A DNA stretch of 64,000 nucleotides from Stigmatella aurantiaca DW4/3-1 (lineage in GTDB: Bacteria > Myxococcota > Myxococcia > Myxococcales > Myxococcaceae): positions 5,846,893 through 5,910,892 of the forward strand of contig NC_014623.1 in the NCBI RefSeq assembly GCF_000165485.1. The letters run 5' to 3'. Of this stretch, positions 46,123 to 64,000 are shown piece by piece. Under the pieces are notes generated by a model, which did not search any database, was not told where the DNA came from, and worked only from the letters and a program-made list of their open reading frames with translations. The position numbers and the translations under genes were made by a program. The stretch's first letter is position 1, and the number at the start of each line of letters is the position of its first letter.

Positions 46123-46540
46123 GGGTCACCCCTTCCCTACAGCGCCAAGCTCTTTTGAAGCCCCGCCTTGACCGGACAGGAGACCCTCCACGGATATGAG
46201 CATCATCCCTCCAAGGTCTATCCCAGCATGAGTTCCAACCCATTCAGAGAACTTCGCGGACATATCAGGACCACCCAGAAAGAGGAGACAACCTCGCTTG
46301 CGACTTCAGAGCATCTACCCCGTGAAGTACACATATAGTCACCCTTTCAGGTTTACTACAAGAGATGAGCGCGAGGCTTTGGCATTTGGTCCTGATCCGG
46401 CGTGGAGGCCCGTGCGCGAAAGCCTGGAATTCACGCGACCGTGAAGAAGGAGCAATAACGGGCTCCCACCAGGCAACGTGCGATAGCATGCCTCGGTGCA
46501 CCCGGCCGTTCATGCTGGGCGTCCCTCCTTGAGCCGCCGA
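46123..46540. other. Intergenic region between XRE and thioesterase genes; small ORF remnant
   Basis: This 418-bp gap has lower GC than its surroundings. It must hold the divergent promoters of the XRE and thioesterase genes, but I could not pick convincing -35/-10 pairs. A 36-codon frame at 46228-46338 (MSSNPFRELRGHIRTTQKE...) resembles the first helices of an XRE regulator and may be a decayed fragment. No repeat or RNA gene was seen. Confidence 0.45.
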
Positions 46541-47326
46541 ATGAAGCCCGACTCCTCCCCACCTCCGATCAACTCCCCCTGGCTCGTTCAGCGGAAGCCC
46601 CCCACCTCCTCTGGGGTCCGGCTCTTCTGCTTCCCCTACGCGGGCGCAGGCAGCCTCCCGTACTTCAAATGGCCGGATCTGCTTCCTGGGGGCATCGACT
46701 TGTGCGCTGTCCAGCTTCCCGGCCGGGAAAACCGCCTCCGCGAGCCTGCCTTGCGAGATCTCCACCAGTTGATAACGAAGCTGGTGGAGGCGCTCTCTCC
46801 TCATCTGGGGGGAGAGTTCGCCTTCTTTGGTCACAGCTTCGGAGCGCTCGTCGCATTCGAGCTGATCCGCGAACTGCGCCGACGCGGATTGCCTCTTCCG
46901 AAGGTATTGTTCGCTTCAGGCTCTGAGTCCCCGTCTCTCCGGACCAAGCTCCCTGCTTTGAGCGGGCTCGAACGCGACGATTTCGTGCGCGAGGTCGCGG
47001 CCCGGTATGGCGGCCTTCCCCGCCATATCATGGAGCAGCGCGAGCTCCTCGATCTCGTCCTCCCAACCCTTCGCGCCGATCTGAAGATCTTGGAAGATTA
47101 CGTGTACCGCCCAGAGCCTCCGCTCCCCTTGCGGATCTGTGCCTTCGGCGGCACCGAGGATCCCCGGGTCGCCGAGGCTGCGCTCGACGCGTGGCGCCGG
47201 GAGACGAACGTTGCCTTCAAGCTGCAGATCTTTCCCGGCGGGCACTTCTTCATCAATGAGGTCACCCGTCAGGTGCTCCAGACCCTTAGCAACGAACTCA
47301 TCGCCGGTTCCCATCCCTCCCCATGA
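46541..47326 (+). CDS. Type II thioesterase (GrsT-like)
   Basis: A 261-residue alpha/beta hydrolase of the GrsT/RifR type: VRLFCFPYAGAG, the nucleophile motif FFGHSFGALVAFEL (Ser), the acid region CAFGGTEDPRV (Asp) and GGHFFINE (His). Such enzymes remove stalled or wrong acyl groups from carrier proteins in polyketide and peptide synthesis. The ATG at 46541 is preferred; an in-frame GTG at 46496 would add a 15-residue Arg-rich leader. The stop overlaps the ACP start by 4 nt (ATGA), so it and the ACP are translationally coupled. Confidence 0.93.
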   Translation: MKPDSSPPPINSPWLVQRKPPTSSGVRLFCFPYAGAGSLPYFKWPDLLPGGIDLCAVQLPGRENRLREPALRDLHQLITKLVEALSPHLGGEFAFFGHSFGALVAFELIRELRRRGLPLPKVLFASGSESPSLRTKLPALSGLERDDFVREVAARYGGLPRHIMEQRELLDLVLPTLRADLKILEDYVYRPEPPLPLRICAFGGTEDPRVAEAALDAWRRETNVAFKLQIFPGGHFFINEVTRQVLQTLSNELIAGSHPSP

Positions 47327-47586
47327 ACAAGGCCCAGCTTCTCGCTGATCTGACCCGGTACATCACCGAAGAAATTCTCGAGGGCAATGCGGAGGACCTC
47401 GAGCCTTCCACGCCACTGCTCGAACTCGGTATCTTGAACTCACTGGAGACGGCCCGGATGATGCGATTCATCGAGAAGCAGTACGGCATCACCGTCCCGG
47501 CCGATGCCATGCGGGTCGAGAACCTCCAAACTCTCTCCGCGATCACGGATCTGGTACACAGCCTGCAACCTCAGGGGCCCGGGTAA
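47323..47586 (+). CDS. Discrete acyl carrier protein
   Basis: An 87-residue carrier protein with the phosphopantetheine site LELGILNSLETARMMRF (Ser in LNSLE, Asn replacing the usual Asp before it). Acidic helices and the length fit a free-standing ACP. It is coupled to the thioesterase upstream and convergent with the KS-AT gene, which lacks its own ACP. A trans role for this ACP is therefore plausible. Which enzyme loads it is unknown. Confidence 0.93.
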   Translation: MNKAQLLADLTRYITEEILEGNAEDLEPSTPLLELGILNSLETARMMRFIEKQYGITVPADAMRVENLQTLSAITDLVHSLQPQGPG

Positions 47587-47629: not shown

Positions 47630-50479
47630 TCAGCTCGTTCCCTTCAAGCTCTCCAGGAGCGCCTGGGCCTGCTCATCCGAAAGCCCCTCGAGCAGCTCCA
47701 GTTGTCCCGCGAGTGCATCGAGATCTCCCTCCAGGATCTCCGCAGAAGCGCCCTGTTTCTTCGGGGCGGAGGCCTGAGGCGGATCAAACCAGTAGCGGCT
47801 TCGCTGGAAACAACTGGTCGGCAACACGGCCTTGGCGTGTTGTTGACCACGGTAGAAGTCCGGCCACGCCACATCGGTCCCCGCGGCGACGAGTTCCGCG
47901 AAGCCCTCCAGCAGCTCCGTCCGGCCGTCGCTGTCCGCTCTCAGACTGGGAACCCAGTGCAGCTCCGGAGCAGGGCGAACGCGCTTTCCCCATGCCGTCA
48001 GGCCTGCTCCTGGGCCGATTTCTATATGTGCCCCCACGCCCATCTCGCCCAGGGCCTGCAACGCCGCGGCCGGACGTGACGGCACTCCCGGCGATCCCAG
48101 CCAATACTCCGCCCCCGGGGACTCCAACAACTGCCCGGTGACTGTCGAGAACCATGGCACCTGGGGCCGCTGATGAACCACCCCGCGCGCGGCGGCACCG
48201 GAGGCCTCTCGCACGCCCTTCCAGCCCGCCAGGCTCATCGCATGGGGCACGCTGCTCAACTCGGAGCGCACACCCAGCCGGGTCAGCTCGGCCTGCAACG
48301 CCTCGACAGAAACCCGTGCCCCCGAAAACACGCCCCGCCCTCCGCCATCGATCCCCACCAGGCACACCTCTGGAAAGCCCAGCAACACTTCCCCGAGACG
48401 CGCGAACTCCTCGACGGCGAGTTCGGCTCCTGGAGGCAAGCGTTCGAGCTGCGCGCCCAAGGAGGCAACGAGCTTGACCCCCTCTTCCCAGGAGAACACT
48501 CCCGCGGCACACGCCGCCGCGTACTCCCCAGTCCCGGAGCCCAGCACCCCGGAAGGCTCGATCCCCCACCCCTTCCACAAGTGGACGAGACCACACTGCA
48601 GGGCCAGCAGCCCTGGAAGCGCAATGCCCGGAGCAAGCGGAGCGAAGTCCTTCCCCTCCTGAGGAAACAGCCCAGAAACAAGCGGACGCGCGAGCGCGCG
48701 CTCACACTTCAGCACGGCATCACGGAAGGTGGGCTCGGACTCGAAGAGCTGTTTTCCCCACCCCACCGGCACTGTCCCCTGCCCGCCAAAAAGGAACGCG
48801 ACGCGAGGCCGCTGCCGCCCAGAGCCAGCCCGGACTCCCGGCGTCTCCTCCTCCCTCAGGAACCCGGAAAGACGGCGGCTCGCCTCCTCATGGCTCGATG
48901 CCACGACGGCAACCCGGTGAGGGAACGCGACCCGGCCCGTGCTGGCCGTAAAGCAGATGTCCGGGAACGGAGCGTGGCGCAGGGCGCCTGCGGACAAGCC
49001 GTTCACGTACTGCTGGGCCAGCTCACGAAGTGCAGGCTGCGTCTTCGCCGAGAGCACCAGCACTTGTGCGGAAGACGTGCTGCTCGAGGGTTCGCGTTCG
49101 CCGGCCGGCGCCTCCTCGATCAAGACGTGCGCATTCGTTCCGTTGAAGCCGAACGCGGTCACGCCCGCGATCCGCCGTTTCTGACCGCGAGGCCAGGCCA
49201 CCCGGCCCTTGGGAACGGTGACCGGCAGCTCGTCCCAGCGAATGTTCGGGTTGGGGGTCTCCAGGTTCAAGTGCGCGGGGATCTCTTCGTTCTGTAGGGC
49301 GAGCACCACCTTGATGATGCCGGCTACGCCCGCAGCTCCCTCGGTGTGACCAATGTTGGTCTTCACAGAGCCAACGACGATCGGCTCCTCGCGAGGACGC
49401 TCCTGTCCGTAGACCCGGCCCAGCGCCTCCATCTCAATGGGGTCTCCGATGGCCGTTCCCGTCCCGTGCGCCTCGAGGTAACTCAGCTGCCCGGGTTCCA
49501 CCCCTCCGGCCCGCAGCGCCGCCCGCATCACCTTCGCCAGGGCGTTGCCATTGGGAACCGTCAACCCGCTCGACTGGCCGCTGTGGTTGGTCGCGGACCC
49601 TCGGATCAGCGCCAGGATCGGGTCCCTGTCCGCAATCGCATCCGACAGGCGCTTGAGCACCAGCATGCCGCAGCCCTCACCCCGGACGAAGCCATCCGCC
49701 GCCGCGTCGAACGTGCTGCAGCGCCCCTTCTGGGAGAGCATCCGCATCGCGCAGTTCACCACGGCGGTGAGCGGAGAGAGGATCAGGCTGATCCCTCCCG
49801 CCAGGGCCAAGTCACATTCGTAGGTGCGCAGGCTCTGACAAGCGAGGTGCACGGTCACCAGGGACGAGGAGCAGGCCGCATCCACTGCCATCGCCGGTCC
49901 CTGAAGCCCAAGAATGTAGGCCAGCCTCCCTGCCGCGACGCTCAGCCCTGATCCCGAAGCCGTGTGGAGATCGATCTGAGTCGCATCGGTCATCAGGTGC
50001 GAGAAGTCCTCGTTCATCATCCCGACGAAGACCCCCGTCGAGCTCCCCTTGAGACCGGTCGCCGCGATGCCTGCCCGCTCCAGGGCTTCCCAGGTAACCT
50101 CCAGGAGCAGCCGCTGGTGCGGATCCATCCGGGCAGCCTCGCGGGGGGAAATACCGAAGAAGCCCGGATCGAAGTCCTCGATCCCCCGGATGAAGGCACC
50201 ATGCCGCGTGTACATCTTCCCCGGAGTCCCCGGGGTGGGGTCGTAGTAGTCGTCGATGTTCCAACGCGAGGAAGGGATGGTCGAGATCGCGTCCTTCCCA
50301 TCCCTGAGCAATTCCCAGAACGCCTCTGGGGTGTCTCCCCCTCCTGGAAAACGATGGGCCATTCCCACAATGGCGATGGGCTCGCTCAAGGCCAGGGCCA
50401 ACTTGGGTTGCAGCTTGCGCGCCACCAGCGCCAGCTTGATAGGCGCCAGTTCGGAGACACGGGGAGATTGATCCGTCAT
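47630..50479 (-). CDS. Polyketide synthase KS-AT protein with degenerate AT and no ACP
   Basis: A 949-residue protein. KS (about 33-455) is complete: C203 in VDAACSSSLV, His in EAHGTGTAIGDP and His in KTNIGHTEGAAG. The AT (about 550-860) is broken: FLFGGQGTVPVGWG replaces FLFTGQGxQ, and the nucleophile motif reads G647-S-G-T-G651 instead of GHSxG, so the Ser is Gly; the malonyl motif HAFHS reads HAMSL. No DH, KR or ACP follows. The C-terminus is a docking-like helix (LDALAGQLELLEGLSDEQAQALLESL) and the N-terminus a short helix (SELAPIKLALVARKL). It is the last gene of the operon, 21 bp after the main PKS module. It must work with an AT and ACP in trans, perhaps the discrete ACP (47323-47586). 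Confidence 0.93.
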   Translation of the reverse strand: MTDQSPRVSELAPIKLALVARKLQPKLALALSEPIAIVGMAHRFPGGGDTPEAFWELLRDGKDAISTIPSSRWNIDDYYDPTPGTPGKMYTRHGAFIRGIEDFDPGFFGISPREAARMDPHQRLLLEVTWEALERAGIAATGLKGSSTGVFVGMMNEDFSHLMTDATQIDLHTASGSGLSVAAGRLAYILGLQGPAMAVDAACSSSLVTVHLACQSLRTYECDLALAGGISLILSPLTAVVNCAMRMLSQKGRCSTFDAAADGFVRGEGCGMLVLKRLSDAIADRDPILALIRGSATNHSGQSSGLTVPNGNALAKVMRAALRAGGVEPGQLSYLEAHGTGTAIGDPIEMEALGRVYGQERPREEPIVVGSVKTNIGHTEGAAGVAGIIKVVLALQNEEIPAHLNLETPNPNIRWDELPVTVPKGRVAWPRGQKRRIAGVTAFGFNGTNAHVLIEEAPAGEREPSSSTSSAQVLVLSAKTQPALRELAQQYVNGLSAGALRHAPFPDICFTASTGRVAFPHRVAVVASSHEEASRRLSGFLREEETPGVRAGSGRQRPRVAFLFGGQGTVPVGWGKQLFESEPTFRDAVLKCERALARPLVSGLFPQEGKDFAPLAPGIALPGLLALQCGLVHLWKGWGIEPSGVLGSGTGEYAAACAAGVFSWEEGVKLVASLGAQLERLPPGAELAVEEFARLGEVLLGFPEVCLVGIDGGGRGVFSGARVSVEALQAELTRLGVRSELSSVPHAMSLAGWKGVREASGAAARGVVHQRPQVPWFSTVTGQLLESPGAEYWLGSPGVPSRPAAALQALGEMGVGAHIEIGPGAGLTAWGKRVRPAPELHWVPSLRADSDGRTELLEGFAELVAAGTDVAWPDFYRGQQHAKAVLPTSCFQRSRYWFDPPQASAPKKQGASAEILEGDLDALAGQLELLEGLSDEQAQALLESLKGTS

Positions 50480-50500: not shown

Positions 50501-53500
50501 TCAACGGCCACGGCGCAGCATGGCCTGGACCTGGTCGTCATCCAGATCGTCCACGTCCGCCAGGAGCGCATCCAGTTCCTGATCCTCGCCGGCGTCCCAG
50601 GCGGCAGCAGGAGCGGCCTCATCGTCCTTGAGTCCCAGGACCTCGGCCGCCAGGTAATTCACCAGTTCGTTGACGTTGGGGTTGTCGAACGCCACGGTCG
50701 CGGGCAGCGAGGCGCCCAGGCTCCGCTGAAGGACGTTTCGCAGTTCCACGGACATCAGCGAGTCCATTCCGAGCGCGAAGAAGCCCTGATTGGGATCGAG
50801 CGCCTCCGCCGGGGGCCGGCCCAGCACACCGTTCACGAGCTCACCCACGTGCGCACGCAACGCGGCACGCTGGCCTTCGGCAGAGAGCGGCTCGAGCTTC
50901 CGCCGGATTCCCCCACTCTCGGCCGGGGCAGCCTTCTCGATGAAGGCCTCGAACAATGGAGAGCTCCCCCGCCGCCCGAGCATCGCCCAATCCACCGGAA
51001 GAATGCCCAACTGGCCTCCCAGCCCAAGTGCCTGCTCGAAGAGCTGGAGCCCATCGGCAGGGGGAATTACCCCGAAGCCGAGCTGCTCCATCCGGCGCTG
51101 GAGCTGTGCCTCCGCAGCCACACCGATCTCCGCCCAAGCGCCCCAGTTGAGGCTCAGGCCCGGCAACCCCGCCGAGCGTCGAAGATGGGCCAGTCCGTCC
51201 AGGAAAGCATTGGCGGCCACGTAGTTGGCCTGTCCACTGGAGCCGATCAGCGACGACGCCGACGAGAAGAGCACGAAGAAGTCGAGTTCCACCCCCTGAA
51301 GCACGTGGTGGAGATTCCACCCGCCAAAGACCTTGGCGGCGAACACCCGGGCGAAACGCTCCGGTGTCATCTGAATCAAAAGCCCATCGTCGATGACCGC
51401 CGCGGAGTGGACGACGCCCCGGATGGGCGGCAGCCGTCCACCGATCTCCGACATCGCGCGCTCGAGATCGGATGAAACGGACACATCGCATTGCAGGCTC
51501 TGAACTTCCACGCCTCGCGCGGTCAGCGCGGCCAGCCGGGACCGAGCCTCCGCTCCTGGCTCGCTTCGCCCGATCAACACCAGGTGGCGAGCGCCCTTCT
51601 CGGCCAACCTCTCGGCCACGGCCAGACCCAATCCACCCAATCCACCCGTGACAACGTAGGTTGCGTCTGGACGCAGGGAAGCGCTGGTCTCGCCGCCCGG
51701 AGACCGGAGCCGGTGGCTGCGAGCCAAGCGGGCCACACGGCGGGTATCTCCCCGCAGCGCGATCTCGTCCTCGCTGCTCTCGCCGAGAATTTCCCCAGCG
51801 AGCTGCTCGAGTTCGTAAGGAGACGAACCGGGATCCAGATCCACGCGCCGACAATGGAGTTCCGGATGCTCGCGCGTGATGGCCTTGCCAAGACCCCAGA
51901 GGGCCGAGCCACTCAAGCCAGCGAGCGGCTCCCCCTCAGTGACCGCCTGAGCCCCCCGCGTCACCAGCCAGAGCGAGGCCGTCCGGCCTTTCGAACCTCG
52001 GACGAGCGCCTGCGCGAGCTCAAGCACGCGGGTACTGTGACGAAGGGCATCCCTGGAGACATCTGGGCCTGCCGTGGCCCCACCAAGGCTCCACAGATCG
52101 ATGACGTGGATCGGGCACGGCACCGCACTCTCCAAAAGCGCCAGAAGCGCCTCGGCACGCGCGCGATCCACGCCGGAGCCTTCCTCCCCTGCTCCGACCG
52201 TCACCGTGTTCCAGCCGCTCGCCTGGAGGCGCTCGGCGAGGCGGTGACCTACACCCGTTTCATCGGCGAGGATCAGACACTGAGGCGCTGCCCCCGAGGT
52301 CGTGCCGGAAGTGCCATCGCCGGGGGTGCCGGACTGCGCAGCCAGCGGTCTGACCTGCCACTCCAGCTCATAGAGCCAGTTCTGCAAACGCTTGCTCCTC
52401 GCTCCAAAGAGGCCCTCCCGGGTCACCCGCCGGAGCAACAGCTGCTCGACGGACGCCACGAGCGCCCCTTCGGAAGACAACAGCTTGATGTCACACGTGT
52501 AAACAGGGCCCTTCGGATCCTCGTCCCGAGAGATCCGGGCGTGGGCCCACACTTCCCGCAAGCCCGCCCTGAACACCCGGACCTTCCCAACTCCCACGGG
52601 AAGGTAGGCAGTCTCTCCCGCCTCATCGAGCACAGCCCCCACCATCTGGAAGCACGCGTCCAAAAGCGAGGGAGGCAGCAAGTAGCGCTCGGCCTCGGTC
52701 AGCGCGGCACCGGCCAGGCCAAGCTGGCCAAGCACCTCGTTCTGGCCGCGCCAAAGACCCCGGATCGCGCGGAAGCTGGGACCGTACGAGAGCCCCGCCT
52801 GACCCAGCTTCTCATAATAAGCCTCCACGGGGACTTCCTGAACGAACTCAGCCCGGAGGCCTTGAAGATCCAGGCGCTCGCCAGGGACAGACGCCGCCGA
52901 GGCCAGCTTCCCATGGGCGTGCAAAGTCCAGGAGGGTTCCGCTCCGCCGTCGCCCGCCTCCTCATCCTGGCTGAAGATCTCGAACCTCCCCGAGCGCTCT
53001 CCTTCCGGCGTGTAGAGCAGATGCACGCGACGATCCCCTTCCTCGGGCAGGAAGAGGGCCTGTGAGAAAGCAAGAGCGTCCACGGTGCTACTGGCCTCTC
53101 CAAAGAGCGCCGCACCCGCGGCAAGCCCCATCTCCACATAGGCGGCGCCCGGCATGACGATCTGCCCGTAGACACCATGATCCCGGAGGAAAGGCAGCTT
53201 CGAAGGCCCCAAGGAAGACTCGAACTGCCGCACCTGCGCTGGAGACGCTTGGCGCCGACCGAGGAGCGGGTGGACGCGCTCATCACGAGCGGTGCCCTGC
53301 CCCCGCGTTCCCTGCCGGTCCCAGGCCGTGCCAGTCAGCTCCATCCAGTACGCCCGCCGCTGGAAAGGGTAGCTGGGGAGCGAGACCTTGCGCCGGTCAA
53401 TGCCCTCCTCCAGGCCCCTCCATTTCACCTGTGCTCCCGCGACGTAGAGGGACGCGAGCCCCTCCAACATCTGCCGCCAATCCGAGTGCTCGGGCCGCAG

Positions 53501-56101
53501 GCTCGCCAGCCAGCGTTTGTCATCTCCTGAGACGCAGGCCTGGCCCATTGCCACGAGGGTCGGCTTGGGACCTGCTTCCAGAAAGACCTGCACCCCCGCT
53601 TGCGCCAGGGTCTCCATTCCCTGCGCGAACATCACGGGCTTGCGGAGATGATCCACCCAGTACCGGGGGCTCACGATCTCCGCCCCAGCCTCTTTTCCAC
53701 TCAGGTTCGAGATGAGGGGAATCCCCGGTGGCTGAAACCGCACTTTCTCCACGGCCCGAGAGAACGCGTCGAGGATGGGATCCATCAAGGCCGAGTGGAA
53801 AGCATGGGAGACGCGCAATGGCGTGCAGCGGACCCCTTTCTTGGCCAGCTCGCCAAGACAGTCGCTCAATGCGCCTTCACGGCCCGAGAGCACAACGCTG
53901 CGAGGACCATTGAGTGCAGCGATGGACACCTGCCCCTCGTACTTTGGAAGCAGGGCCTCTACCTCCGGTGAAGCAGCGGAGACGGCCGCCATCCCTCCAC
54001 CAGCAGGCAGGGACTGCATCAGTCGCGCACGCGTGGCAATGAGTTCTAGGCCTTCCTCCAGCGTGAACACGCCCGCCACGCACGCCGCCACGAACTCACC
54101 GACGGAGTGTCCCATCACAAAGTCCGGGACAATTCCCCACTGCATCCACAGCTGGGCCAGGGCGTATTCCAGCGCGAACAGTGCCGGCTGGGTGTACCCC
54201 GTCTCATCCAGCCGGACACGCGCGTTGTCGTCACGCTCTGGCGGATAGAGCAGCGAGATGAGTGACACGCCCATCAGCGGACGCAGCACCTCATCACAGC
54301 GAAGAAGCGTCCGGCGGAAGGTGGGTTCAGTCCGGAAAAGTTCCTCGCCCATGCCGAGCCACTGAGCCCCTTGGCCGGTAAACAAGAAAGCAATCCGCGG
54401 CTGTCCCTCGGCTTTCCCGCTCAGCATGGGCTGAGCGCCATGCCCCGCTTGGAACGCACGCAATTGCTCGCGCATGGCCCCCTGCGAGTCACCGACGAAC
54501 GCAAGCCGATGCTTGAAATGGGCGCGCCCGGTATTGGCGGTGAAACAGATGTCCGCGAGAGCCTCCGAAGCAAGCTCGGGCCCTCCGAGGACTTGCTCGT
54601 AACGCTGGGCAAGCGCTCCCAGCGCTTCCTGACTCTTGGCCGACAACGCCAAGAGGTGAAGCGGCCGAGGAGCTTCCTCCGGGGCCCGGGGCAACACCGG
54701 AGGAGCCTCCTCAATGAGGACATGCGCGTTGACGCCACTGAGCCCGAAGCCGCTGATGCCCGCGATCCGGGACTTGGCACCTGACGGCCAACCCGTCACC
54801 TGCGTGGGAATGGAGAGCCGAAGTTGCTCCCAGTCAATGGCCGGCGTGGGCTGGCGGAAGTGCAAGTGGGGGGGGAGTTCTCCATGCCGCAAGGACTGAA
54901 CGACCTTGATCATGCCCGCCGCACCCGCAGCGGACTCGAGGTGGCCGAGGTTTGTCTTCGCTGAACCGACAAGCAGTGGCTCGTCCGGACGCCGGCCCTG
55001 CCCGAACACCGCATCGAGTGCCCGGAGTTCAATGGGATCCCCCAACGGAGTTCCGGTTCCGTGGGCCTCCACGTAGCGAACGTCGGACGGAGACAGGCCA
55101 GAGGTCTCCAGGGCCTTTCGCAGCAGCTTTTCCTGCGCGGGACCGTTGGGAACCGTCAGGCCACCACTGGGCCCATCATGGTTCACCGCGGAGCCGCGGA
55201 TGACGGCGAGGATGCGGTCCTTGTCCCGCTGTGCATCCGAGAGCCGCTTGAGCACCAGGACGCCGCATCCCTCGCCCCGCCCGTAACCATTCGCGGAAGC
55301 ATCGAAGGTCTTCGAACGGCCGTCTGGCGCCAGTGCCCGCATCTTGGACAGGACGATGTTGTTGTCCGGATGGAGGATCAGATTCACACCGCCGGCGAGG
55401 GCCAGCGAGCACTCCCCCAGCCGCAGCGCCTGACAGGCGAGATGGGCCGACACAAGCGCCGAGGAGCAGGCCGTCGCCACCACCATGGAGGGGCCTTGAA
55501 GGCCCAGGACATAGGAGACGCGGCCCGCCGAGAAGCTCAGCTCGTTCCCGGTCCCCATGTACGGAAGATCCCGGGTCTGGATCGCATTGAAGGGAACGCG
55601 CCCATAGTCACTGCTGAGAAAGCCGACATAAACACCGGTGTCGCTTCCAGCCAATGAGTCCGGATTGATTCCAGCATCTTCCAGAGACTCCCACGCGACC
55701 TCGAGCATCAACCGCTGCTGCGGATCTACATAGTTCGCCTCACGCGGCGAGAGACCGAAGAACTCGCAGTCGAAGGCGGCGATGGGCTGTGCGAGAAACC
55801 CTCCCTCTCGCACGACCATCTTCCAGTCGGCGCCAGGATCCTGCGCATAGTATGCATCTGCATCCCAGCGGTCCGACGGCACCTTGCCGACCGCGTCGAC
55901 CCCAGCGCGCAGCAGTTCCCAGTACAGCCCTGGATTGTCAGCCCCTCCAGGGAACCGGCAACCCATGCCGATGATGGCGATCGGCTCAGTGCGCGCCCGC
56001 TCCAGCCCGTCGATGCGCGTACGGAGGGTCTTGATTGCCAATGCCGCCCGTTGCAAGGGCGTCATCGCCTCCAGCGAGGCAGGAGTCTGATCGTTGGACA
56101 T
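50501..56101 (-). CDS. Type I polyketide synthase module KS-AT-DH-KR-ACP
   Basis: An 1866-residue module. KS (about 38-460, Cys in [36 protein letters not shown]); AT (about 560-870, GHSVGEF near 665; HAFHS indicates malonyl-CoA); DH (about 930-1190, [13 protein letters not shown] and [11 protein letters not shown]); KR (about 1480-1660, [14 protein letters not shown], catalytic Ser in FSSASSL and Tyr in [16 protein letters not shown] in SAAVIDDG suggests B-type, giving the D-hydroxyl); ACP ([11 protein letters not shown] near 1777). There is no ER or TE. It would add malonate, reduce and dehydrate, leaving a double bond. N-terminal coiled coil and acidic C-terminal tail ([18 protein letters not shown]) are docking elements. 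It starts 9 bp after the radical SAM stop. Confidence 0.96.
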
Positions 56102-56110
56102 CTCTTCGAC

Positions 56111-58132
56111 CTAGTGAGGCGATACCGCTTGCGCGGGCGCCGGGCGTCCGGCGGGTACAGCTCCGAGACGAGACCAATCGATGGTGCCAAGCTGGGCGGC
56201 CATCTTCAGATCGATGATCCGCTGACGCTCGTTCCGATCGAGCACGAGGCCCAAGTACCTGACCCCTTCGCGGATGACCCAGCCCCTCTCCAGAAACTCC
56301 GTCAACAGTGCATCGAAGGCCGCCTCCGTCACTTCGCCTTCCGTCCGTCCCTCGTTCAGCTTCGAGAACACGGCCTTGCTGCTTTGGATGGAGTCCAGGA
56401 GCTTCAAGATCCGAAGGCCATCGGCGGAGAGGGGCACCTTCTTCGAGGTTCCATCCCGCGTATCCAGGACACAAGGCACCTCACCGTCGAGTTGGAACTC
56501 GAGCGTCACGCCCCGGCTGTACCCGTCGCGCCACTGCTCGGTCCGCTGCAAGGTGTCGCGCAGGTAGAGGTGCGGCTCGCGGGCATCCTCATAGTCGTAG
56601 TCAAAGTAGTACGCGATCCGCCGACGCTCCTCGGGGGGCAGCATGGCGTAGACGTAGTCGTAGGACCATTTCTGGCGGACGTTGACCAGCTTGTACTTCT
56701 CGGGCGACTTCCAGTACGGCGCGAACCGGTCCAACCGGATGCGTCCGCAGCCTCCTGGCGGAGGCAGGTGGAACAAGGACGGCATCAACTTGGCCATGTC
56801 CTCGTACTCCTCGGGAGGCTCTCCAGGGAAGCCGAAGAGGATGTTCCAATTGACGTTGATGGCGAACTCTTCGCACCACTTGATCAGCTGGATGTTCTGC
56901 AACCGCGTGGTGCCCTTGTCCATGAGCTCGAGCACGGGCGTGCTGAGGCTTTCGATCCCAGGCTGAAGCTCGGTGACGCCCCCCGCAACCATGAGCTCCA
57001 ACTGCTCCTTCCGGAGGTTGCTCTTGGTCTCGTAGAACATCGTGATCTCGTCCCCCTGCTCGATGAGGGCGGGAAACACCGACTTGATGTACTTCAGGTC
57101 CAGAATGTTGTCGGCCATCATGAAGAAGTTGAAGCCGTAGCGCTGGGCCAGCGTGCGCAGCTCGTGGACAAACTTGCCCGCGTCCTTGCTCCGGTACGCC
57201 ATGCCCGAGCCGTTGAGGCCACAGAAGGTGCAATGCGCCTTGGCACCCCACCAGCAACCGCGAGAGGACTCAGCGGTCAGGTTGGCGCGCTTGGCCATCG
57301 GCATGTCCTTGATGGCCTGGAAGTAGTGATCGAAATCCGGCATCGGCAGCGAGTCCATGTTCTCGATCTGAGGCGCCGCCACATAGCGCGGCTGCGGCCG
57401 GTTCGTCCCAGGGTTCAGCACCCCCTTGACGAGATCGAGGATGACCCCCTCCCCCTCTCCGGAGACCACATGATCCAGGAAGGGGAAGTTGTCCGAGATC
57501 GCCTTGCCCATGTCCGCTTCGCAGTTGGCGCCCCCCATGATGATCGTCAACTCCTCACGGGGGACCAACCGACGCAGTTCCTTGGCCAGCGCCAGGGAGG
57601 CCACATTCTGTTGGAAGGTCGAGGTGAAGCCGATGACCCGCGGCTTGTCGCGGAGGAGTTCTTGCGCCCACTGCCTCACGATCCGGGGACTGTCCTCCCG
57701 GAGGGCCCGGATTTGCTCGCGGGCCTTGCCCCAATGCAGTGCCTGCTCACGGCGAGCGCCACCCGAGGTAGCACCTTCCGTGTGCTGCTTCACCTCCAGC
57801 AACGGCGTCAGCAGGTCCGCGTACGCCTCCCAATTCGAGGCGGCCTCGCCCCACAAGGCCGGAGCGAAAACCATCTCCCCGAGGAGCAAGTCAGGAGAGG
57901 CGGGAAGGAACGCCATTTCACCCGCGAGAATCTCCGGCGGCGTGGCGTACGACAGGTAGTAGTAGAGCTCCCAGCCGATCTGCCGCATGAACTGCACATT
58001 GAGGTACTGGACGCTGGCCTTGATTCCTTCTTTTTGAAGCACGCTGACCAGCGTGCTCACACCCAAAGCAGGCTGGTGCTCCGGAAGAAAAGGAGCGACG
58101 ACGAATCGGACTTGAACGGAATCAGAGGACAC
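56111..58132 (-). CDS. B12-binding-type radical SAM protein of the RiPP-maturation family 1
   Basis: A 673-residue protein. Its N-terminal 260 residues form a cobalamin-binding-like Rossmann fold (FTSTFQQNVASLALAKELRRL, IIMGGANCEADMGKAI, FLDHVVSGEGEGVI), without a clear DxHxxG. The radical SAM core has the unusual cluster motif GCWWGAKAHCTFCGLNG (Cx7CxxC, about 293-304), then the SAM-binding strands (MADNILD, ELQPGIESLS, WNILFGFPGEPPEEY). This is the motif and layout of the family annotated as RiPP maturation radical SAM protein 1 (TIGR03975), yet it sits between two PKS genes, 3 bp from one and 9 bp from the other. A methylation or other radical step on an ACP-bound chain is inferred. Confidence 0.9.
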   Translation of the reverse strand: MSSDSVQVRFVVAPFLPEHQPALGVSTLVSVLQKEGIKASVQYLNVQFMRQIGWELYYYLSYATPPEILAGEMAFLPASPDLLLGEMVFAPALWGEAASNWEAYADLLTPLLEVKQHTEGATSGGARREQALHWGKAREQIRALREDSPRIVRQWAQELLRDKPRVIGFTSTFQQNVASLALAKELRRLVPREELTIIMGGANCEADMGKAISDNFPFLDHVVSGEGEGVILDLVKGVLNPGTNRPQPRYVAAPQIENMDSLPMPDFDHYFQAIKDMPMAKRANLTAESSRGCWWGAKAHCTFCGLNGSGMAYRSKDAGKFVHELRTLAQRYGFNFFMMADNILDLKYIKSVFPALIEQGDEITMFYETKSNLRKEQLELMVAGGVTELQPGIESLSTPVLELMDKGTTRLQNIQLIKWCEEFAINVNWNILFGFPGEPPEEYEDMAKLMPSLFHLPPPGGCGRIRLDRFAPYWKSPEKYKLVNVRQKWSYDYVYAMLPPEERRRIAYYFDYDYEDAREPHLYLRDTLQRTEQWRDGYSRGVTLEFQLDGEVPCVLDTRDGTSKKVPLSADGLRILKLLDSIQSSKAVFSKLNEGRTEGEVTEAAFDALLTEFLERGWVIREGVRYLGLVLDRNERQRIIDLKMAAQLGTIDWSRLGAVPAGRPAPAQAVSPH

Positions 58133-58135
58133 AAC

Positions 58136-60961
58136 CTACTCCTTTTCGAATACCCGAGAGGCGCCAGACCGCAGCGCCTCGTAGAGAGAGTCCGCCAGCT
58201 CGACGATGCTTTTGCCCGCCAGCAGTGCCTGCAGGGGGAACTCGACCCGAAGCTCGGTGAGGAGCAACTTCTTGAGTTCCACCCCCATCAGGGAATCCAA
58301 TCCAAGCTCATGCAGTGTCTGCTCTGGCTCGGGAAGCTGCGCAGTTCCCATTTCCAGGATCCGAGCCACCCTCTCGCGGAAATAGGTGAGGACGGCGCTC
58401 CTCGCCTCCTCGCGGGAACTCCCGCGCACGCGCCTCACGAGCTCGTGGCGGATCTCAGAGCCCGCACGGCCCGGGCCCGCATCGCTCCAGAAGTCCGCGA
58501 ACAGGGGCGGCAGATCGTCTCCCGGCAGGCCTCCAAGGAACGTCGGCCAGTGAATGGGCATCACCCCCGCCACCGCGGGGACTTGCCCGAACACCTGCTC
58601 CAGAACCGCGAAGGCCTGCTGGGAATGCATCATTCCCACCCCTCGCTTGCGCATGCGCGAGTCCAGCGCCTGCGCTGCCTCGTCGCCGGGCTGCGCCCAC
58701 GCGCCCCAGCTCGAACTCTGCCCGTGCAACCCCAGAGACCGCCGGTACTCGGCCAGCCCATCCAGGAAGGCGGTGGCCGCCAGGTGGTTGCTCTGGCCCG
58801 AGGCCCCCATCAAGGAAGTGGACGAGGACAACGAAAGGAAGAAATCCAGCTCCTTGTCCGCCAGCCAGCGGTGCAGGTTCCACGCACCGGAGACCTTCGC
58901 CGTGAACACCCGGCCAAAGCGTTCCCGCGTCTGGTGGACGAGAATGCCATCGTCCACCTCGGTCGCGGCGTGAATGATTCCTCGCAACGGAGGCATGCGC
59001 TTCGAAATCCCGGCCATCACATAGTCGAGATCCGAATCCACCGAGACGCCTGCCAAGGAGACGATCGTGGCCCCACGGCCTCGCATCTCCCGCACCTCGT
59101 CGGTGGACACATCGCTGGCCCGCTTGCGTCCGAGGAGCACCAGATTTCTTGCGCCCCGCTCGACCATCCAACGGGCGACCAACAGCCCCAGCCCTCCCAG
59201 GCCCCCCGTGACCAGGTAGGTGGCGTCCGCTTTGAACTGGAGGCGCCCGGCTTGCTCCCAATCCCACTGCCGGTACCGGCCCAGCCGCAACACGTGGCGG
59301 GTTCCGTTCCGGAACGTGACTTGATCCTCACGATCATGGGCCAGGAACTCCGTCCACAGCTGGCCCGCCTCGTCCTCGCCGCGACGGGGCGTCAGATCCA
59401 CCCGGCGGCAATCGAGCTCCGGATGCTCGTAGGCGATCGCCTTCCCAAGGCCCCAAAGGGGTGAACTCAGCAGGCCAGGAAACGCCTCGTCCCCAACGCG
59501 CTGGGCTCCCCGGGTGATCACCCAGAGAGAGGGGGATACAGCGGTCCCCGCGCTCCCTTTGAGCAAGGCCTGCGTGAGGTACAGCACGCCACCACAAGCA
59601 TCCAAGGCCTCATCCTGAAGCTGCGCAACCGACAGCCCGTCGGGCTTTGGCACATCGAGGCCCCACAGGTAGACCACGTGGGAAGGCACCAGCCCCTCAC
59701 GGGATACCTCGTCCACCACGCGCAAGAAGGCTTCTGGGTTCCGGAGGGGCACCGAGTAGCTGCCGTCCTCGTTCCGGCGGAACTCATCCCCCCTGTGGAC
59801 GAGCGTGCACTTGCCACCCGCTCCCCTGACGTGCCGCGAGAGATCCTCGCTCAACCCGCCCTTGTCGGCGAAAACCAGGCAATGCACTTGCCGCACCGGG
59901 GTCTCTGGATGAACCTCCTGGGCTAGACGGGGCGGGCTCGCGACGGGCCGCCATTGCGGCGAATACAACCAGTTGTGCGGCAACTCCGAGTAGCGCTTGG
60001 CCGCCAGGAGCCGCTCACGGTTCAGCGCCTCCAGTTGCTGCGGGTCGAGTTCGCGCTGTTTCTCCGCGATCAGAAGCAGGTAGGCCGCAGCGCCTCCCCG
60101 GAGCAAACCCCCGATGGCTGCATTCGTCCGAGCCCCCTCCGCCCTCGCATCCTCCTGTTTCCACCCGAGCTGGCTCAGGTGCGTCTCGAGCGCCGGATCG
60201 TAGAGGAAGTTCGCCACCTCCTGGGCTGCATCCACGCAGTCCACGGCGAGAAAGCCATTCCCGGAGAGCAGCGCAATCAGCTCGTCCACGCTGGGAAGGG
60301 CCAGCCGATCGATGTGGGGCAGCGACAAACCCGTCTTCAGAAACAGATCGCCGATGACCAGTCGGCCGCCCTCCTTGACCCGTGAGCCCAAGGCAGCGAA
60401 GAGCTGGCCACGCTCCAGGGTGTGACCGAGCGCCTCCAGTCCAAAGGCGAGATCGAAGCCCGCCTCGGGCCCCGCTCGTCCCAGTTCTCCCGTGACGATG
60501 CCGATACGGCCTTCCAGAGAACGGGCCTTCACGGCCTCACGGGCGGCTTCTGCCTCATCGGACGAAGCGGTATGCCCGACGATCTGAAACTTCCCCAGCC
60601 GCTCCGCCAAGGCGGCCAGCTCCAAGCCCCTTCCACAGCCAAATCCGAGAACGTGCTCGCAGGCCGACAGGTCGATGCCACGAAACAACGCTCCTCGCAG
60701 TTCACGGCGGGCTTGGGCGAGGTGCCGCGCCTGCTCTGAGTCCGGAGAAGCCTGGCCCGCCATCAGCCAGGAGAACGAAGGGGTGACCTCCGGAAGCAGC
60801 GCCAATGTCCCCAAGGATGGCCGGTGGCGCTGGGCCTCGCTGGCTGGAGCCTGCGCCGGCTGGCCACGCCCCTTCAGCGCCAGCTCCAGCAGAGCCCGCT
60901 TCTCGGGAGAAAGCGCGGCGATCCTGTCCGCGAGAATGCGGCCCTGCCCCTCTTTATCCAT
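58136..60961 (-). CDS. KS-less PKS fragment MT-KR-ACP with degenerate KR
   Basis: A 941-residue protein. After an N-terminal helix (GRILADRIAALSPEKRALLELAL) comes a C-methyltransferase (about 65-330; SAM motif VLGFGCGRGLELAAL near 100). Then comes the KR pair of subdomains (LYSPQWRPV marks the structural half; NADPH motif [14 protein letters not shown] near 585). In the active site GQSNHLAATAFLD replaces GQxNYxAANAF, so the catalytic Tyr is His and the Asn is Thr: the KR is probably inactive. It ends in an ACP (LGLDSLMGVEL near 889). With no KS or AT it must take part in a split module. It lies 45 bp after the 159-aa gene and 3 bp before the radical SAM gene. Confidence 0.93.
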   Translation of the reverse strand: MDKEGQGRILADRIAALSPEKRALLELALKGRGQPAQAPASEAQRHRPSLGTLALLPEVTPSFSWLMAGQASPDSEQARHLAQARRELRGALFRGIDLSACEHVLGFGCGRGLELAALAERLGKFQIVGHTASSDEAEAAREAVKARSLEGRIGIVTGELGRAGPEAGFDLAFGLEALGHTLERGQLFAALGSRVKEGGRLVIGDLFLKTGLSLPHIDRLALPSVDELIALLSGNGFLAVDCVDAAQEVANFLYDPALETHLSQLGWKQEDARAEGARTNAAIGGLLRGGAAAYLLLIAEKQRELDPQQLEALNRERLLAAKRYSELPHNWLYSPQWRPVASPPRLAQEVHPETPVRQVHCLVFADKGGLSEDLSRHVRGAGGKCTLVHRGDEFRRNEDGSYSVPLRNPEAFLRVVDEVSREGLVPSHVVYLWGLDVPKPDGLSVAQLQDEALDACGGVLYLTQALLKGSAGTAVSPSLWVITRGAQRVGDEAFPGLLSSPLWGLGKAIAYEHPELDCRRVDLTPRRGEDEAGQLWTEFLAHDREDQVTFRNGTRHVLRLGRYRQWDWEQAGRLQFKADATYLVTGGLGGLGLLVARWMVERGARNLVLLGRKRASDVSTDEVREMRGRGATIVSLAGVSVDSDLDYVMAGISKRMPPLRGIIHAATEVDDGILVHQTRERFGRVFTAKVSGAWNLHRWLADKELDFFLSLSSSTSLMGASGQSNHLAATAFLDGLAEYRRSLGLHGQSSSWGAWAQPGDEAAQALDSRMRKRGVGMMHSQQAFAVLEQVFGQVPAVAGVMPIHWPTFLGGLPGDDLPPLFADFWSDAGPGRAGSEIRHELVRRVRGSSREEARSAVLTYFRERVARILEMGTAQLPEPEQTLHELGLDSLMGVELKKLLLTELRVEFPLQALLAGKSIVELADSLYEALRSGASRVFEKE

Positions 60962-61005: not shown

Positions 61006-61485
61006 TTAGGTGATCTTGATCTTCTCTGGCCCCTCGGCGCTGGGCTTACCGCTGGCGTTCTCCGGAGTGGATGCCGCAGTGCTCTGTGGCGCCGCACCCT
61101 GAGCGCATGGCTTGCTGCTCGAGGTGAGGTCGGGCCGCCGGGTGTATCGGGAACCGTAATAAGCGCCTGCCCTCTCCATCATCTGCTTGATCGTCATCAC
61201 GCGCCCGGGAGGACACGCCAGCGTCCCGGGCGCCGCGCTGCTTTCGGCACGAGGCTGCGGCCCGTCCTTGATCGCCGTATCAATCTGGTCCAGCTCGTTG
61301 ATCTCAGCCTCGATCAAGTGCGAGATCCCCTTGAGCAGGTCCTTCTTTGCCCGGAAGAGCTGTTGCACGAAGCCTCGTCCTCCTGGGACCAAGGCCTCGG
61401 CCATCTCGGCCACCTGTGCGCCCTCTTCGGGCAGCGCCGTGATTCGGAAAAATCCCTGCGGGAAACGCATGTTTTGCCAGGACAT
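61006..61485 (-). CDS. 159-aa protein of unknown function in the PKS operon
   Basis: I do not recognise this protein. It begins SWQNMRFPQGFFRITALPEEG, has a charged amphipathic helix (FVQQLFRAKKDLLKGISHLIEAEINEL), then a Ser/Ala/Pro-rich region with two Cys (TLACPPGR, SKPCAQGA) and a basic ending EKIKIT. There is no signal peptide or membrane segment. It starts one nucleotide inside the ATPase stop (TGATG), so the two are coupled. Being next to a Get3-like ATPase, it could be its client or scaffold. A RiPP precursor role is possible but there is no known leader motif. Confidence 0.8.
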   Translation of the reverse strand: MSWQNMRFPQGFFRITALPEEGAQVAEMAEALVPGGRGFVQQLFRAKKDLLKGISHLIEAEINELDQIDTAIKDGPQPRAESSAAPGTLACPPGRVMTIKQMMERAGAYYGSRYTRRPDLTSSSKPCAQGAAPQSTAASTPENASGKPSAEGPEKIKIT

Positions 61486-62651
61486 CAGCCACCTCTTTCC
61501 TGTCGGAAACTCACAATGAGTCTATCACCTTCCATGCGTGCTCCCTCGGTGGGCAAGAGCGCAATCATCTTGGGAAGCAGAATGTTGCGCCTGAAGGCGC
61601 CCACCTGGATGACCAGCTCCTCCCCGCGCCGGTGGAGCTCGATCTCGTCCTTGGACACGAAGGGAAGCTTGACCTCGAACCGGTACACATCCACCGCGTC
61701 CTTGGTGAGACCCAGGGCGGGATGCACGGCCATGACCCGCGCCGGATCCTCTCCCGTGTAGAGCAGGTTCCCGAACGCCTCGAGCTGCCCCTCTCCCACC
61801 ACTTCTCCGGGGTGCAGAGGAATCTTCACCACGGGAAGGGGCGCGAAGAGGCCTTGGAGCTTCTCGACCTGGAGTTGCTGGGCGAGGTACTGGTCCGCAA
61901 GCGGCCCCTCCTGCTCCGGGAGGAGTCCGTTGATGACGAGGCAGTCGGTGGCGATTCCATAGAGGCTGAAGTAGGTGTACGCCCGCTGGGCCTCCTGGGC
62001 AGCGACCTTGTCGGCGGTCGTGACCAACCGCAGGGTTGTCACCTCTGGATTGTGAAGCAGCGCGTCCACGATCACCAGCTTGTCCCGAACCTCCCGGGCA
62101 GCGGCCGCCTCGCCGCCGTCCGCAGCCGAGGACCGGGCCCGCTGGAGCTTCCGGTGATCCTGACCCAACTGCCTCCGGAAGTACCAGCTCATGGCCGCCG
62201 TGCTACCAACGAGGCGCAGTGCCCCAGCCGTGGATGGGCAGTCCACGACGATGAGCTCGTACTGCTGCTCGCGGATGTGTTCGCCGAGCCGAAGCAGCGT
62301 GACGAGTTCCTCGAGACCCGGGGTGATCGCCACTTCCACTGCCGCCACGGCGTCCAGACCTCCACTGCCCGTGACCGCGGCAACGTAAGCATGAAGTCCA
62401 GTCCATCCGTGCCGGAGTTCTTCCTGAGCGTCGATCTCCTGGAGGTGCAGGTGGTCATTGACGCGAACAGGCCCTCCCTGGGTTGCGAACAAGGGCTCCT
62501 CGATGTCAAAGGCACCACTCAGACTTCGAGAATGATCGAACGAGAGGACCAAGGTCCGGACACCTCGGCGCGAGGCCGCCAGACCCGTGGCTGCCGCCAC
62601 CGCCGTTTTCCCTGCACCACCTTTTCCTGAGACAAGAATGATTCTGGCCAT
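61485..62651 (-). CDS. ArsA/Get3-family ATPase with C-terminal alpha-crystallin-like domain (Get3d-like)
   Basis: A 388-residue ATPase: deviant Walker A LVSGKGGAGKTAVAAATGLA at about 6-20, switch I LVLSFDHSRSLSGAFD, IVVDCPSTAGALRLVGS (Get3/ArsA switch II, usually DTAPTGHTLRLL), and VVKIPLHPGEVVGEGQLEAFGNLLY. The last 90 residues (YRFEVKLPFVSKDEIELHRRGEELVIQVGAFRRNILLP) resemble the Hsp20/alpha-crystallin-like domain of Get3d-type proteins. ArsA pumps arsenite and Get3 guides tail-anchored proteins; here no arsenic genes or membrane partner are present, so a chaperone for a PKS product or the 159-aa partner is more likely. It lies 42 bp after the patatin gene. Confidence 0.9.
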   Translation of the reverse strand: MARIILVSGKGGAGKTAVAAATGLAASRRGVRTLVLSFDHSRSLSGAFDIEEPLFATQGGPVRVNDHLHLQEIDAQEELRHGWTGLHAYVAAVTGSGGLDAVAAVEVAITPGLEELVTLLRLGEHIREQQYELIVVDCPSTAGALRLVGSTAAMSWYFRRQLGQDHRKLQRARSSAADGGEAAAAREVRDKLVIVDALLHNPEVTTLRLVTTADKVAAQEAQRAYTYFSLYGIATDCLVINGLLPEQEGPLADQYLAQQLQVEKLQGLFAPLPVVKIPLHPGEVVGEGQLEAFGNLLYTGEDPARVMAVHPALGLTKDAVDVYRFEVKLPFVSKDEIELHRRGEELVIQVGAFRRNILLPKMIALLPTEGARMEGDRLIVSFRQERGG

Positions 62652-62692
62652 CTTGTTTCGCCTTTCTTGGTGCGTTCCGTACTCGGCTTGCG

Positions 62693-63793
62693 CTAGGCGC
62701 CATCCGGCGCCGGGGGAACAGCGGGAGCGGCGTCACCCATCCAGCCTGATTTCAACAACCATCTGCGTGCGTGCGCGAGTTGATCGATACTGGACTGTGT
62801 GGCCAACAATTTTTTGAGGGCCGCTTCCACCTGCTGCAGATCGTAGGCCTCAAGACGGTCGTCGACAACAGGGTTCAGCCGGAAGTATTCCTTCCGGAGA
62901 ATCATGCGACACTGGTAGTGCACGGCATCCGAACCCGCCTCAAGCAGCATCTTCACCAGGACCATGGGGTCCCGGATGTCCAGGAGCCATTTGGAGAAGC
63001 CCCAGTTGGCCGTACCGTTGCAAAAATGGGGTGTCAGATACGTTGAGCTGCACCCGTTGCCGAATGACAGCAGCAGGATGTTGGTCAAGTCGGGCTGCTC
63101 CGACTCCATCGTTTCCACCGCCCGCCCGTCTTTCCGGCTCAAGTTATTGATGGCTTGGGCCAGCCCCACGAGTGATGGGTTGTTGGCGAAGAGGCCACCG
63201 TCCACGTAGCCACTGCCCTGCTCCGCCATCCCCTGGTAGATGGGATAAGAAAGGGGCGGCGAGCCGCTCCGCATCAAAACATCCACCACCAGCTCATCCA
63301 TGTCCGAGTCGGACGGATTGGTGGAATTATGGAAGATCTTTGCCTTCCACGTCCGGAGCCCCTTGCGCCGCCCATCGAGCTGGAATGAAGGGATGGCGAC
63401 CTTTCTCTTGAGGTCCCCGAGCTTTAGGGTCGCACCGAAATAGCTGCAGAAAAAATCGCGCATGTAGCTGGAGTCGAGCAGCGAGCTGGCCCCTGTCAGC
63501 GCCACCAGGGAACGCCCGAGGGACACCGCCTTCCTGTTCATGGCGACGACTTCTCCCCAGAAGTCGAGGATCTTGCTGAGGGCGGCGTCCGGGTTCTCCT
63601 CACTGGCCAGGAACGCTGCGTTGAATGCTCCCGCTGAAGAGCCCGTGAACAGGTCCACGTTGTTCAACAACGTCCGGCGGTCATCACTGGCGTCGAGCAT
63701 TTGCCGGAGCGTCCGGATCATGCCCGCAGTGACGTAACCCTCTCCGCCTGATACGGATGATCCATCCATCGCCAAGATTCGGAACGGCATCAC
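62693..63793 (-). CDS. Patatin-like phospholipase/acyl hydrolase
   Basis: A 366-residue patatin-fold hydrolase: oxyanion-hole region FRILAMDGSSVSGGEGYV (normally DGGGxRG), nucleophile Ser in FTGSSAGAFNAAFLA (GxSxG, about 50-54) and the Asp of the dyad in GYVDGGLFANNPSLVGLAQA (about 199). No signal peptide. Patatins cleave lipid acyl esters and some act on thioester intermediates. In this operon it may hydrolyse or trim an acyl product (inference). Its ATG overlaps the stop of the upstream thioesterase-domain gene (ATGA). Confidence 0.92.
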   Translation of the reverse strand: MMPFRILAMDGSSVSGGEGYVTAGMIRTLRQMLDASDDRRTLLNNVDLFTGSSAGAFNAAFLASEENPDAALSKILDFWGEVVAMNRKAVSLGRSLVALTGASSLLDSSYMRDFFCSYFGATLKLGDLKRKVAIPSFQLDGRRKGLRTWKAKIFHNSTNPSDSDMDELVVDVLMRSGSPPLSYPIYQGMAEQGSGYVDGGLFANNPSLVGLAQAINNLSRKDGRAVETMESEQPDLTNILLLSFGNGCSSTYLTPHFCNGTANWGFSKWLLDIRDPMVLVKMLLEAGSDAVHYQCRMILRKEYFRLNPVVDDRLEAYDLQQVEAALKKLLATQSSIDQLAHARRWLLKSGWMGDAAPAVPPAPDGA

Positions 63794-64000
63794 ATGACCC
63801 CCTTGGAGATCTGCTCTTTTAGCCCCTTGGTAGACAATTCTTCCCGGGGACTCTCTTGGATTGGTGTGGCAGACAGCACCCGATCCAGGCTTTCCTGCAA
63901 TCGCAGCGCAAGCGTCGCCACATTGCGCTCGTCCATGATGAGCGTCATGTGATTGCCTGGCACTGTTACCACTTCCACACCCGACCGGGCGAATCTGCGC
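63790..64000 (-). CDS. C-terminus of a protein ending in a thioesterase domain, cut by window edge
   Basis: Only about 70 residues are visible: RRFARSGVEVVTVPGNHMTLIMDERNVATLALRL and a variable tail. VPGNHMTLI is the catalytic-His region of the thioesterase domain at the end of PKS and NRPS assembly lines (or of a free thioesterase), and the ENVATLA-like helix follows as usual. The rest lies beyond the right edge. If it is a large synthase, it is the upstream part of this operon, and its terminal thioesterase being encoded before the KS-AT genes would break simple collinearity. Confidence 0.82.
   Translation of the reverse strand, partial: RRFARSGVEVVTVPGNHMTLIMDERNVATLALRLQESLDRVLSATPIQESPREELSTKGLKEQISKGVM

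Follow-up and report, generated by a model that had tools for sequence, protein, structure and literature searches.

Radical SAM enzymes of the TIGR03975 family, whose current model carries the name 'RiPP maturation radical SAM C-methyltransferase' (rSAM_ocin_1), usually modify ribosomal peptides. Methylation of substrates bound to pantetheine, in turn, is described for two cobalamin radical SAM enzymes of other pathways, CysS of the myxobacterial NRPS pathway to cystobactamid and TokK of the carbapenem pathway (PMC7966384, PMC12846815). DKxanthenes are described as products with an asparagine unit and a polyene bearing oxazoline and pyrrole, whose chain length and methyl branching vary (PMC4902038); their biosynthetic gene cluster is reported as conserved in Myxococcus and Stigmatella (PMC12766979) and as MXAN_4289-4305 in M. 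xanthus (PMC3986340). The gene analyzed here, referred to as rSAM, encodes a radical SAM enzyme of a RiPP family that is fixed in what is most likely a known pigment pathway. All coordinates are given in the numbering of the window, i.e., the whole stretch of 64,000 nucleotides that was analyzed (Table 1).

The rSAM gene has a predicted GTG start and encodes a protein of 673 aa that contains CWWGAKAHCTFCGLNG. The protein carries the cluster motif C293-WWGAKAH-C301-TF-C304-GLNG, which corresponds to Cx7CxxC followed by the GLN continuation, and it scores 570.2 bits against TIGR03975 (E 5e-171; residues 9-631 of the protein on positions 2-606 of the 606 in the profile) at a curated cut-off of 281.85 bits, which bears out the motif reading and the family membership proposed in an earlier note on this DNA. 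The radical SAM domain PF04055 is matched with 58.4 bits (over 29.5) and the B12-binding domain PF02310 with 23.3 bits, under its gathering score of 32.1. In the family alignment, the pattern C-W/Y-W/Y-G-x4-C-x-F-C is found in 92/92 other rows and in 11/11 rows of the clade to which rSAM belongs, hereafter the dkx clade; 32 further myxobacterial rows contain Cx7CxxC (21), Cx14CxxC (10), or Cx12CxxC (1), and Cx7CxxC-GLN is common, yet not universal, in TIGR03975. The dkx clade departs from the family at six otherwise common residues, which leave the cluster motif unaffected, and has a 13-residue insertion at 69-81 that is filled in none of 57 other full-length rows. Its C-terminal tail, ERQRIIDLK(M/I)AAQLGxxDW, recurs in 12/12 dkx proteins with one M/I change and in none of the same 57 rows. 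The insertion and the tail (632-655) may be sites at which the protein touches the synthase or its carrier protein. On the plus strand, a long ORF (56051-59464) overlaps the gene in antisense and is favored by a simple composition-based gene caller; we regard the minus-strand frame as the gene because 11 other genomes encode orthologues of 82-96% identity and keep the gene order. The source genome, a single contig of 10,260,756 bases, contains a second TIGR03975 copy at C1:5025860 (L008:9822-11822; 815 bits). G118 encodes a close orthologue of this copy (83%), next to which, at locus L092, one limited search recognized no precursor.

Table 1. Genes of the synthase operon and its surroundings (window numbering).
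Feature	Position	Strand	Remark
Type II thioesterase	46496..47326	(+)	
Free-standing carrier protein	47323..47586	(+)	
KS-AT protein, 949 aa, without ACP	47630..50479	(-)	
KS-AT-DH-KR-ACP module	50501..56101	(-)	core gene in both cluster forms
TIGR03975-family radical SAM enzyme (rSAM)	56111..58132	(-)	673 aa; Rossmann-like N domain, barrel with Cx7CxxC, C-terminal winged helix
MT-KR-ACP protein, 941 aa	58136..60961	(-)	
Small 159-aa protein	61006..61485	(-)	in both cluster forms; no family match
ArsA/Get3-family ATPase with HSP20-like C domain	61485..62651	(-)	in both cluster forms
Patatin-like phospholipase	62693..63793	(-)	in both cluster forms
Terminal NRPS gene, TubC_N-C-A-PCP-TE	63790..64000	(-)	3' end in window; whole gene to 68121
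Prolyl-PCP dehydrogenase	94869-96029	(+)	divergent, upstream of operon

As the earlier note had stated, rSAM is flanked by PKS genes, with gaps of 3 bp to the MT-KR-ACP gene and 9 bp to the KS-AT-DH-KR-ACP gene. The synthase operon is colinear in 12/12 genomes with rSAM (in one of them, G093, the contig ends just past the rSAM gene); in correction of the earlier note, the line is a PKS-NRPS hybrid that reaches beyond the window. It spans the minus strand from about 94.7 kb to 47.6 kb, and all of its intergenic gaps measure at most 44 bp. The operon starts with KS-ACP, KS-AT(partial)-KR-ACP, TubC_N-C(Cy-like)-A-PCP-KS-AT-DH-KR-ACP, a 1855-aa PKS in which KS, AT, DH, KR, and ACP motifs can be read, and KS-AT-DH-KR-ACP, and then continues with TubC_N-C-A-PCP-TE, the patatin, the ArsA ATPase, the 159-aa protein, MT-KR-ACP, rSAM, KS-AT-DH-KR-ACP, and KS-AT. 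The first synthase genes (L068:14403-16622, L068:10018-14403, L068:1106-10021) also look atypical, namely by a KS that lacks an AT and has Tyr for its second His, an AT that reads GEGTG where GHSxG is expected, and a KR with His for Tyr.

From the domain content together with the published descriptions of DKxanthenes, we identify the operon with high, though not complete, confidence as the cluster for this yellow myxobacterial pigment. The upstream dehydrogenase reaches 506.2 bits with the PigA-type prolyl-PCP model (cut-off 500) and 493.1 bits with the RedW-type model (cut-off 650), and the free-standing carrier protein probably holds the prolyl/pyrrolyl starter unit. The Cy-like domain of the NRPS-PKS protein has the motif DGTFIDGYS. 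Read by eye, the specificity code of the terminal A domain is DGTKLGEVAK and hence close to the code for asparagine, DLTKLGEVGK, which makes this domain Asn-like. The imidacin cluster was considered as an alternative identity and discarded, the published scheme showing a short PKS that has neither C nor TE domains (PMC11301661). Our literature search, which took in few subscription papers, found no paper that connects DKxanthenes with a radical SAM enzyme; the gene may nevertheless be described already, and the original cluster paper (Meiser 2008) may cover rSAM, MT-KR-ACP, and KS-AT. The trio of patatin, ArsA ATPase, and 159-aa protein (61006-63793) is present in 18/18 inspected DKxanthene-type clusters and has no obvious role in pigment synthesis; its patatin resembles a CBASS phospholipase (85.9 bits at a cut-off of 200). 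The type II thioesterase was found in all six inspected clusters that lack rSAM and in both rSAM-containing genomes of the window's genus, and was not detected at the remaining rSAM-containing loci.

Across genomes the cluster occurs in two forms, a long form with rSAM, MT-KR-ACP, and KS-AT and a short form devoid of these three genes. Orthologues of rSAM with at least 82% identity exist in 12/147 genomes of the class, the window's own included, and the next best match attains at most 43%. The terminal NRPS, at an identity of at least 68%, is encoded by 23 of the 96 genomes of the family, of which 12 possess rSAM (82-96% identity) and 11 do not. In a search scoring the top 9 candidates of most genomes, MT-KR-ACP was found in exactly the 12/96 genomes that have rSAM and is thus missing from the 11 rSAM-minus genomes as well. 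The KS-AT gene is present at 11/11 rSAM-plus loci where this region is visible (G093 ends with its contig) and absent from 6/6 rSAM-minus loci that were read directly, one of which, the stretch from G111, starts within the second gene of the line. Since only the top-ranking candidates of each genome, 8 or 9, were scored in the genome searches, absences are firmest for these six loci. All six retain the core module, the patatin, the ArsA ATPase, and the 159-aa gene, and rSAM-minus clusters have the free-standing carrier protein and the NRPS modules just as rSAM-plus clusters do. It is the pair of KS-AT and MT-KR-ACP, henceforth the cassette, that accompanies rSAM.

In a core tree drawn by midpoint for 18 genomes, the long form comes out paraphyletic and two cassette state changes suffice, be they gains or losses; the genomes therefore do not count as independent trials of this co-occurrence. 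Outside the genus of the window, rSAM is 82-84% identical, and the large synthases reach 58-77%. At 4-fold sites, four comparisons with the window genome gave identities of 48-59% for rSAM, 40-54% for six core PKS/NRPS genes, and 43-55% for the PKS genes of the cassette, which diverge like the core. Because rSAM is thereby similar to or slightly above the synthases at these sites, its conservation reflects constraint and not recent arrival, and a recent horizontal gain of the gene is unsupported. We are confident that rSAM is part of this PKS-NRPS pathway.

What the enzyme does within the pathway was approached by way of its predicted structure; a PDB sequence search with the protein returned no match at E 0.01. 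The closest solved folds to the AlphaFold2 model (pLDDT 89.6, pTM 0.91) are OxsB (Z 21.6, rmsd 3.4, 392 aligned residues), AprD4 (Z 18.8), TsrM (Z 18.2), TokK (Z 18.1), and CysS (Z 17.7), with MgmA also among the matches. Most of them are cobalamin radical SAM enzymes, and the model aligns to OxsB over residues 1-529 and to TokK over residues 3-565. OxsB and AprD4 are not known to methylate; the structures of TokK and CysS were, according to the titles of the entries, solved with pantetheinylated substrates. We consider it likely that rSAM is a cobalamin-dependent methyltransferase. Residues 532-652 form a predicted winged helix, for which leader-binding domains (5v1u, Z 7.9; 6jx3, Z 7.5) and a sactipeptide enzyme (5wgg, Z 7.4) tie with the DNA-binding MecI (Z 8.4); Pfam PqqD matched 3/55 family members with a best E of 0.025. 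The winged helix could accordingly be a peptide-binding domain of the RRE type, RRE and DNA-binding types being indistinguishable in such a comparison.

The active sites of the cassette were compared as well. In KS-AT, the Cys-His-His triad of the KS is intact in 11/11 proteins, and Ser and His of the AT are lost in 11/11. In MT-KR-ACP, the KR has exchanged Tyr for His and Asn for Thr in 12/12 proteins with its NADPH motif kept, the ACP serine is intact in 12/12, and motif I of the MT varies (GFGCG, GFGGD, SWSVG, and others) and misses its acidic residue in 11/12; judged from these residues the MT motif is eroded, and in some species the domain may have kept its activity. A station that receives the chain without extending it fits this pattern, because KS and ACP are kept and the AT and KR residues are lost beside a strongly conserved radical enzyme. 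Our best explanation, put forward tentatively, is that a RiPP-derived cobalamin radical SAM methyltransferase was recruited to the DKxanthene line and works with the co-inherited cassette. According to this proposal, rSAM would descend from TIGR03975 enzymes of the RiPP type and would have been drafted into the DKxanthene pathway, where the cassette KS would hand the pyrrole-oxazole-polyene intermediate over to the ACP of the cassette with no extension step; rSAM would then methylate the carrier-bound chain at an unactivated carbon, the methylated chain would go back to the line, and the terminal TE module would release the product with asparagine. That the cassette ACP indeed carries the substrate as part of a non-extending station is plausible and somewhat short of probable, an estimate we lowered because core modules show similar residue losses: In the window genome, the KR of the core NRPS-PKS module displays the same Tyr-to-His and Asn-to-Thr exchanges as the cassette, and the AT of the second core gene is without its serine. 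Modules with such losses may still work, and a dead KR and AT are weakened as a distinguishing mark of the cassette. A more specific version, in which rSAM has in effect replaced the decaying MT domain and acts in trans on a conserved, non-extending split module to methylate the ACP-bound polyene at a carbon beyond ordinary methyltransferases, we regard as unlikely.

For the cassette itself, the main alternative is an ordinary extending split module that receives its extender units in trans, with rSAM as a tailoring enzyme unbound to it. The retained KS triad and ACP serine suit this alternative, as do the core AT and KR with equivalent losses and the N-terminal docking sequence of KS-AT, which by eye is like that of an extending gene (68118-73631). 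Against it, the loss of the AT residues in all 11 and of the KR tyrosine in all 12 proteins, along with the missing acidic residue of the MT, means that the cassette could at most add an unreduced unit using a foreign AT, and we deem this reading rather improbable. It is possible, if somewhat doubtful, that rSAM serves the DKxanthene pathway away from the cassette ACP, acting on the pyrrolyl starter, the oxazole, or the released product, or catalyzing a non-methylation reaction. Pathway membership is strong and nothing localizes the substrate, and the fold is also like that of the non-methylating OxsB and AprD4; yet the carrier and the NRPS modules occur in rSAM-minus clusters too, and it is the cassette ACP with which rSAM co-occurs. 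The methyltransferase reading acting with the cassette, for its part, has counted against it the PF02310 score below the cut-off as well as the ordinary family motif and the modeled winged helix, which would make a peptide substrate structurally possible.

A peptide substrate leads to the remaining explanation, that rSAM matures a ribosomal peptide encoded elsewhere in the genome and sits in the operon by linkage only. The phylogeny speaks for it and agrees with the placement in a RiPP family made in the earlier note. On a tree of 103 rows, built with a quick method and SH-aLRT support only, the 11 dkx rows (G093 was left out) form one clade (support 99) inside a 14-row clade (support 100) with L120, L121, and L122. 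These nearest relatives share 40-42% identity with rSAM and are RiPP-type: L121 and L122 lie beside clear NHLP precursors (TIGR03793, 99-106 bits at a cut-off of 50.9), L121 also beside a PoyD epimerase (436 versus 325 bits), and L120 next to a weaker candidate, a short ORF resembling NHLP/Nif11 that stays under every cut-off. The possible RRE-type winged helix points in the same direction. The search for a precursor, however, gave a different picture. The small unrecognized peptide in the operon, which the earlier note had entertained, is not borne out, as gaps of at most 44 bp leave no room for such a gene; the 159-aa protein was tried as a precursor and rejected, since it is present in 6/6 inspected clusters without rSAM and matches neither Pfam nor NCBIfam at E 0.01. 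Iterated NHLP precursor models matched 0/11 dkx regions (G093 left out) at a low sensitivity, recognizing precursors in 11/95 other loci. The better test is the genome-wide search with the TIGR03793 leader model, which, for the NHLP class only, was over the cut-off in 0/12 rSAM-plus genomes with matches below it in 3/12; among 16 genomes, the sole match over the cut-off is in G034 and adjoins that genome's own TIGR03975 gene. Neither outcome that the earlier note had named as refuting its reading, a precursor in the operon or tight grouping of rSAM with known RiPP enzymes served by an unlinked precursor, emerged. Since, moreover, an rSAM orthologue is never seen apart from the MT-KR-ACP gene in the 96 genomes and the gene is spaced 3-9 bp from synthase genes, maturation of a ribosomal peptide is highly improbable.

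The genomic context of the family was surveyed at 95 other loci, 79 kept from at least 592 relatives plus 16 myxobacterial ones. By tblastn at 1e-8, a KS-like match was obtained in L193 and A-like matches in L155, L163, and L178, and C or AT domains gave no match at any of the 95. Among 32 further myxobacterial loci selected from a listing, 10 lie among NRPS genes and 22 are without such a match; in a second tree, which took in 15 of the 32, the 10 NRPS-linked loci constitute a separate, distant TIGR03975 clade (support 100) with Cx14CxxC in place of Cx7CxxC. They fall within L258-L273 and L296 (from G133, G134, G136, G004, G116, G131, G103, G108, G024, and G003), and in G131 the last 4 bp of an NRPS gene are shared with the TIGR03975 gene. 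The notion that a PKS/NRPS context is exclusive to the dkx clade had to be given up on account of these loci. A TIGR03975 member also lies beside a precursor of the pheganomycin type and DpgA-C, which are genes for a non-proteinogenic amino acid, at a locus on a Streptomyces plasmid. The changed context that the earlier note saw for the family is real, rSAM being fixed in a PKS-NRPS operon in 12/12 genomes, without being the only departure of this kind.

If the proposal is true, carrier-protein substrates are within reach of a family of leader-peptide enzymes, and the enzymology of RiPPs would be linked with that of assembly lines. It predicts that DKxanthenes differ in structure between long-form and short-form species, a difference that mass spectrometry of existing strains could trace. 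Moreover, with its MT motif eroded and its AT and KR residues lost beside a strongly conserved radical enzyme, the cassette raises the directly testable idea of a trans-acting enzyme that replaces a domain.

Set against the known systems, the operon shares with the DKxanthene cluster (dkx, BGC0000986), to which it was likened by gene content, the prolyl-PCP dehydrogenase, the carrier, the Cy-like A-PCP, the polyene PKS modules, and the Asn-like A-PCP-TE, and it exceeds this cluster by rSAM, MT-KR-ACP, and KS-AT of the long form. With the TIGR03975 family, rSAM has in common the score over the full profile, the Cx7CxxC-GLN motif, and one clade with L120-L122; it differs in being fixed in a PKS-NRPS line, in its own insertion and conserved C-tail, and in that no precursor was found in or near the operon. 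CysS and TokK are not known to be of the TIGR03975 type, and they resemble rSAM in fold (Z 17.7 and 18.1) at 14-15% identity in the structural alignment. Their substrates are an aminobenzoate and a carbapenam and not a polyene; by analogy, they nevertheless provide a precedent for rSAM acting on a substrate bound to pantetheine.
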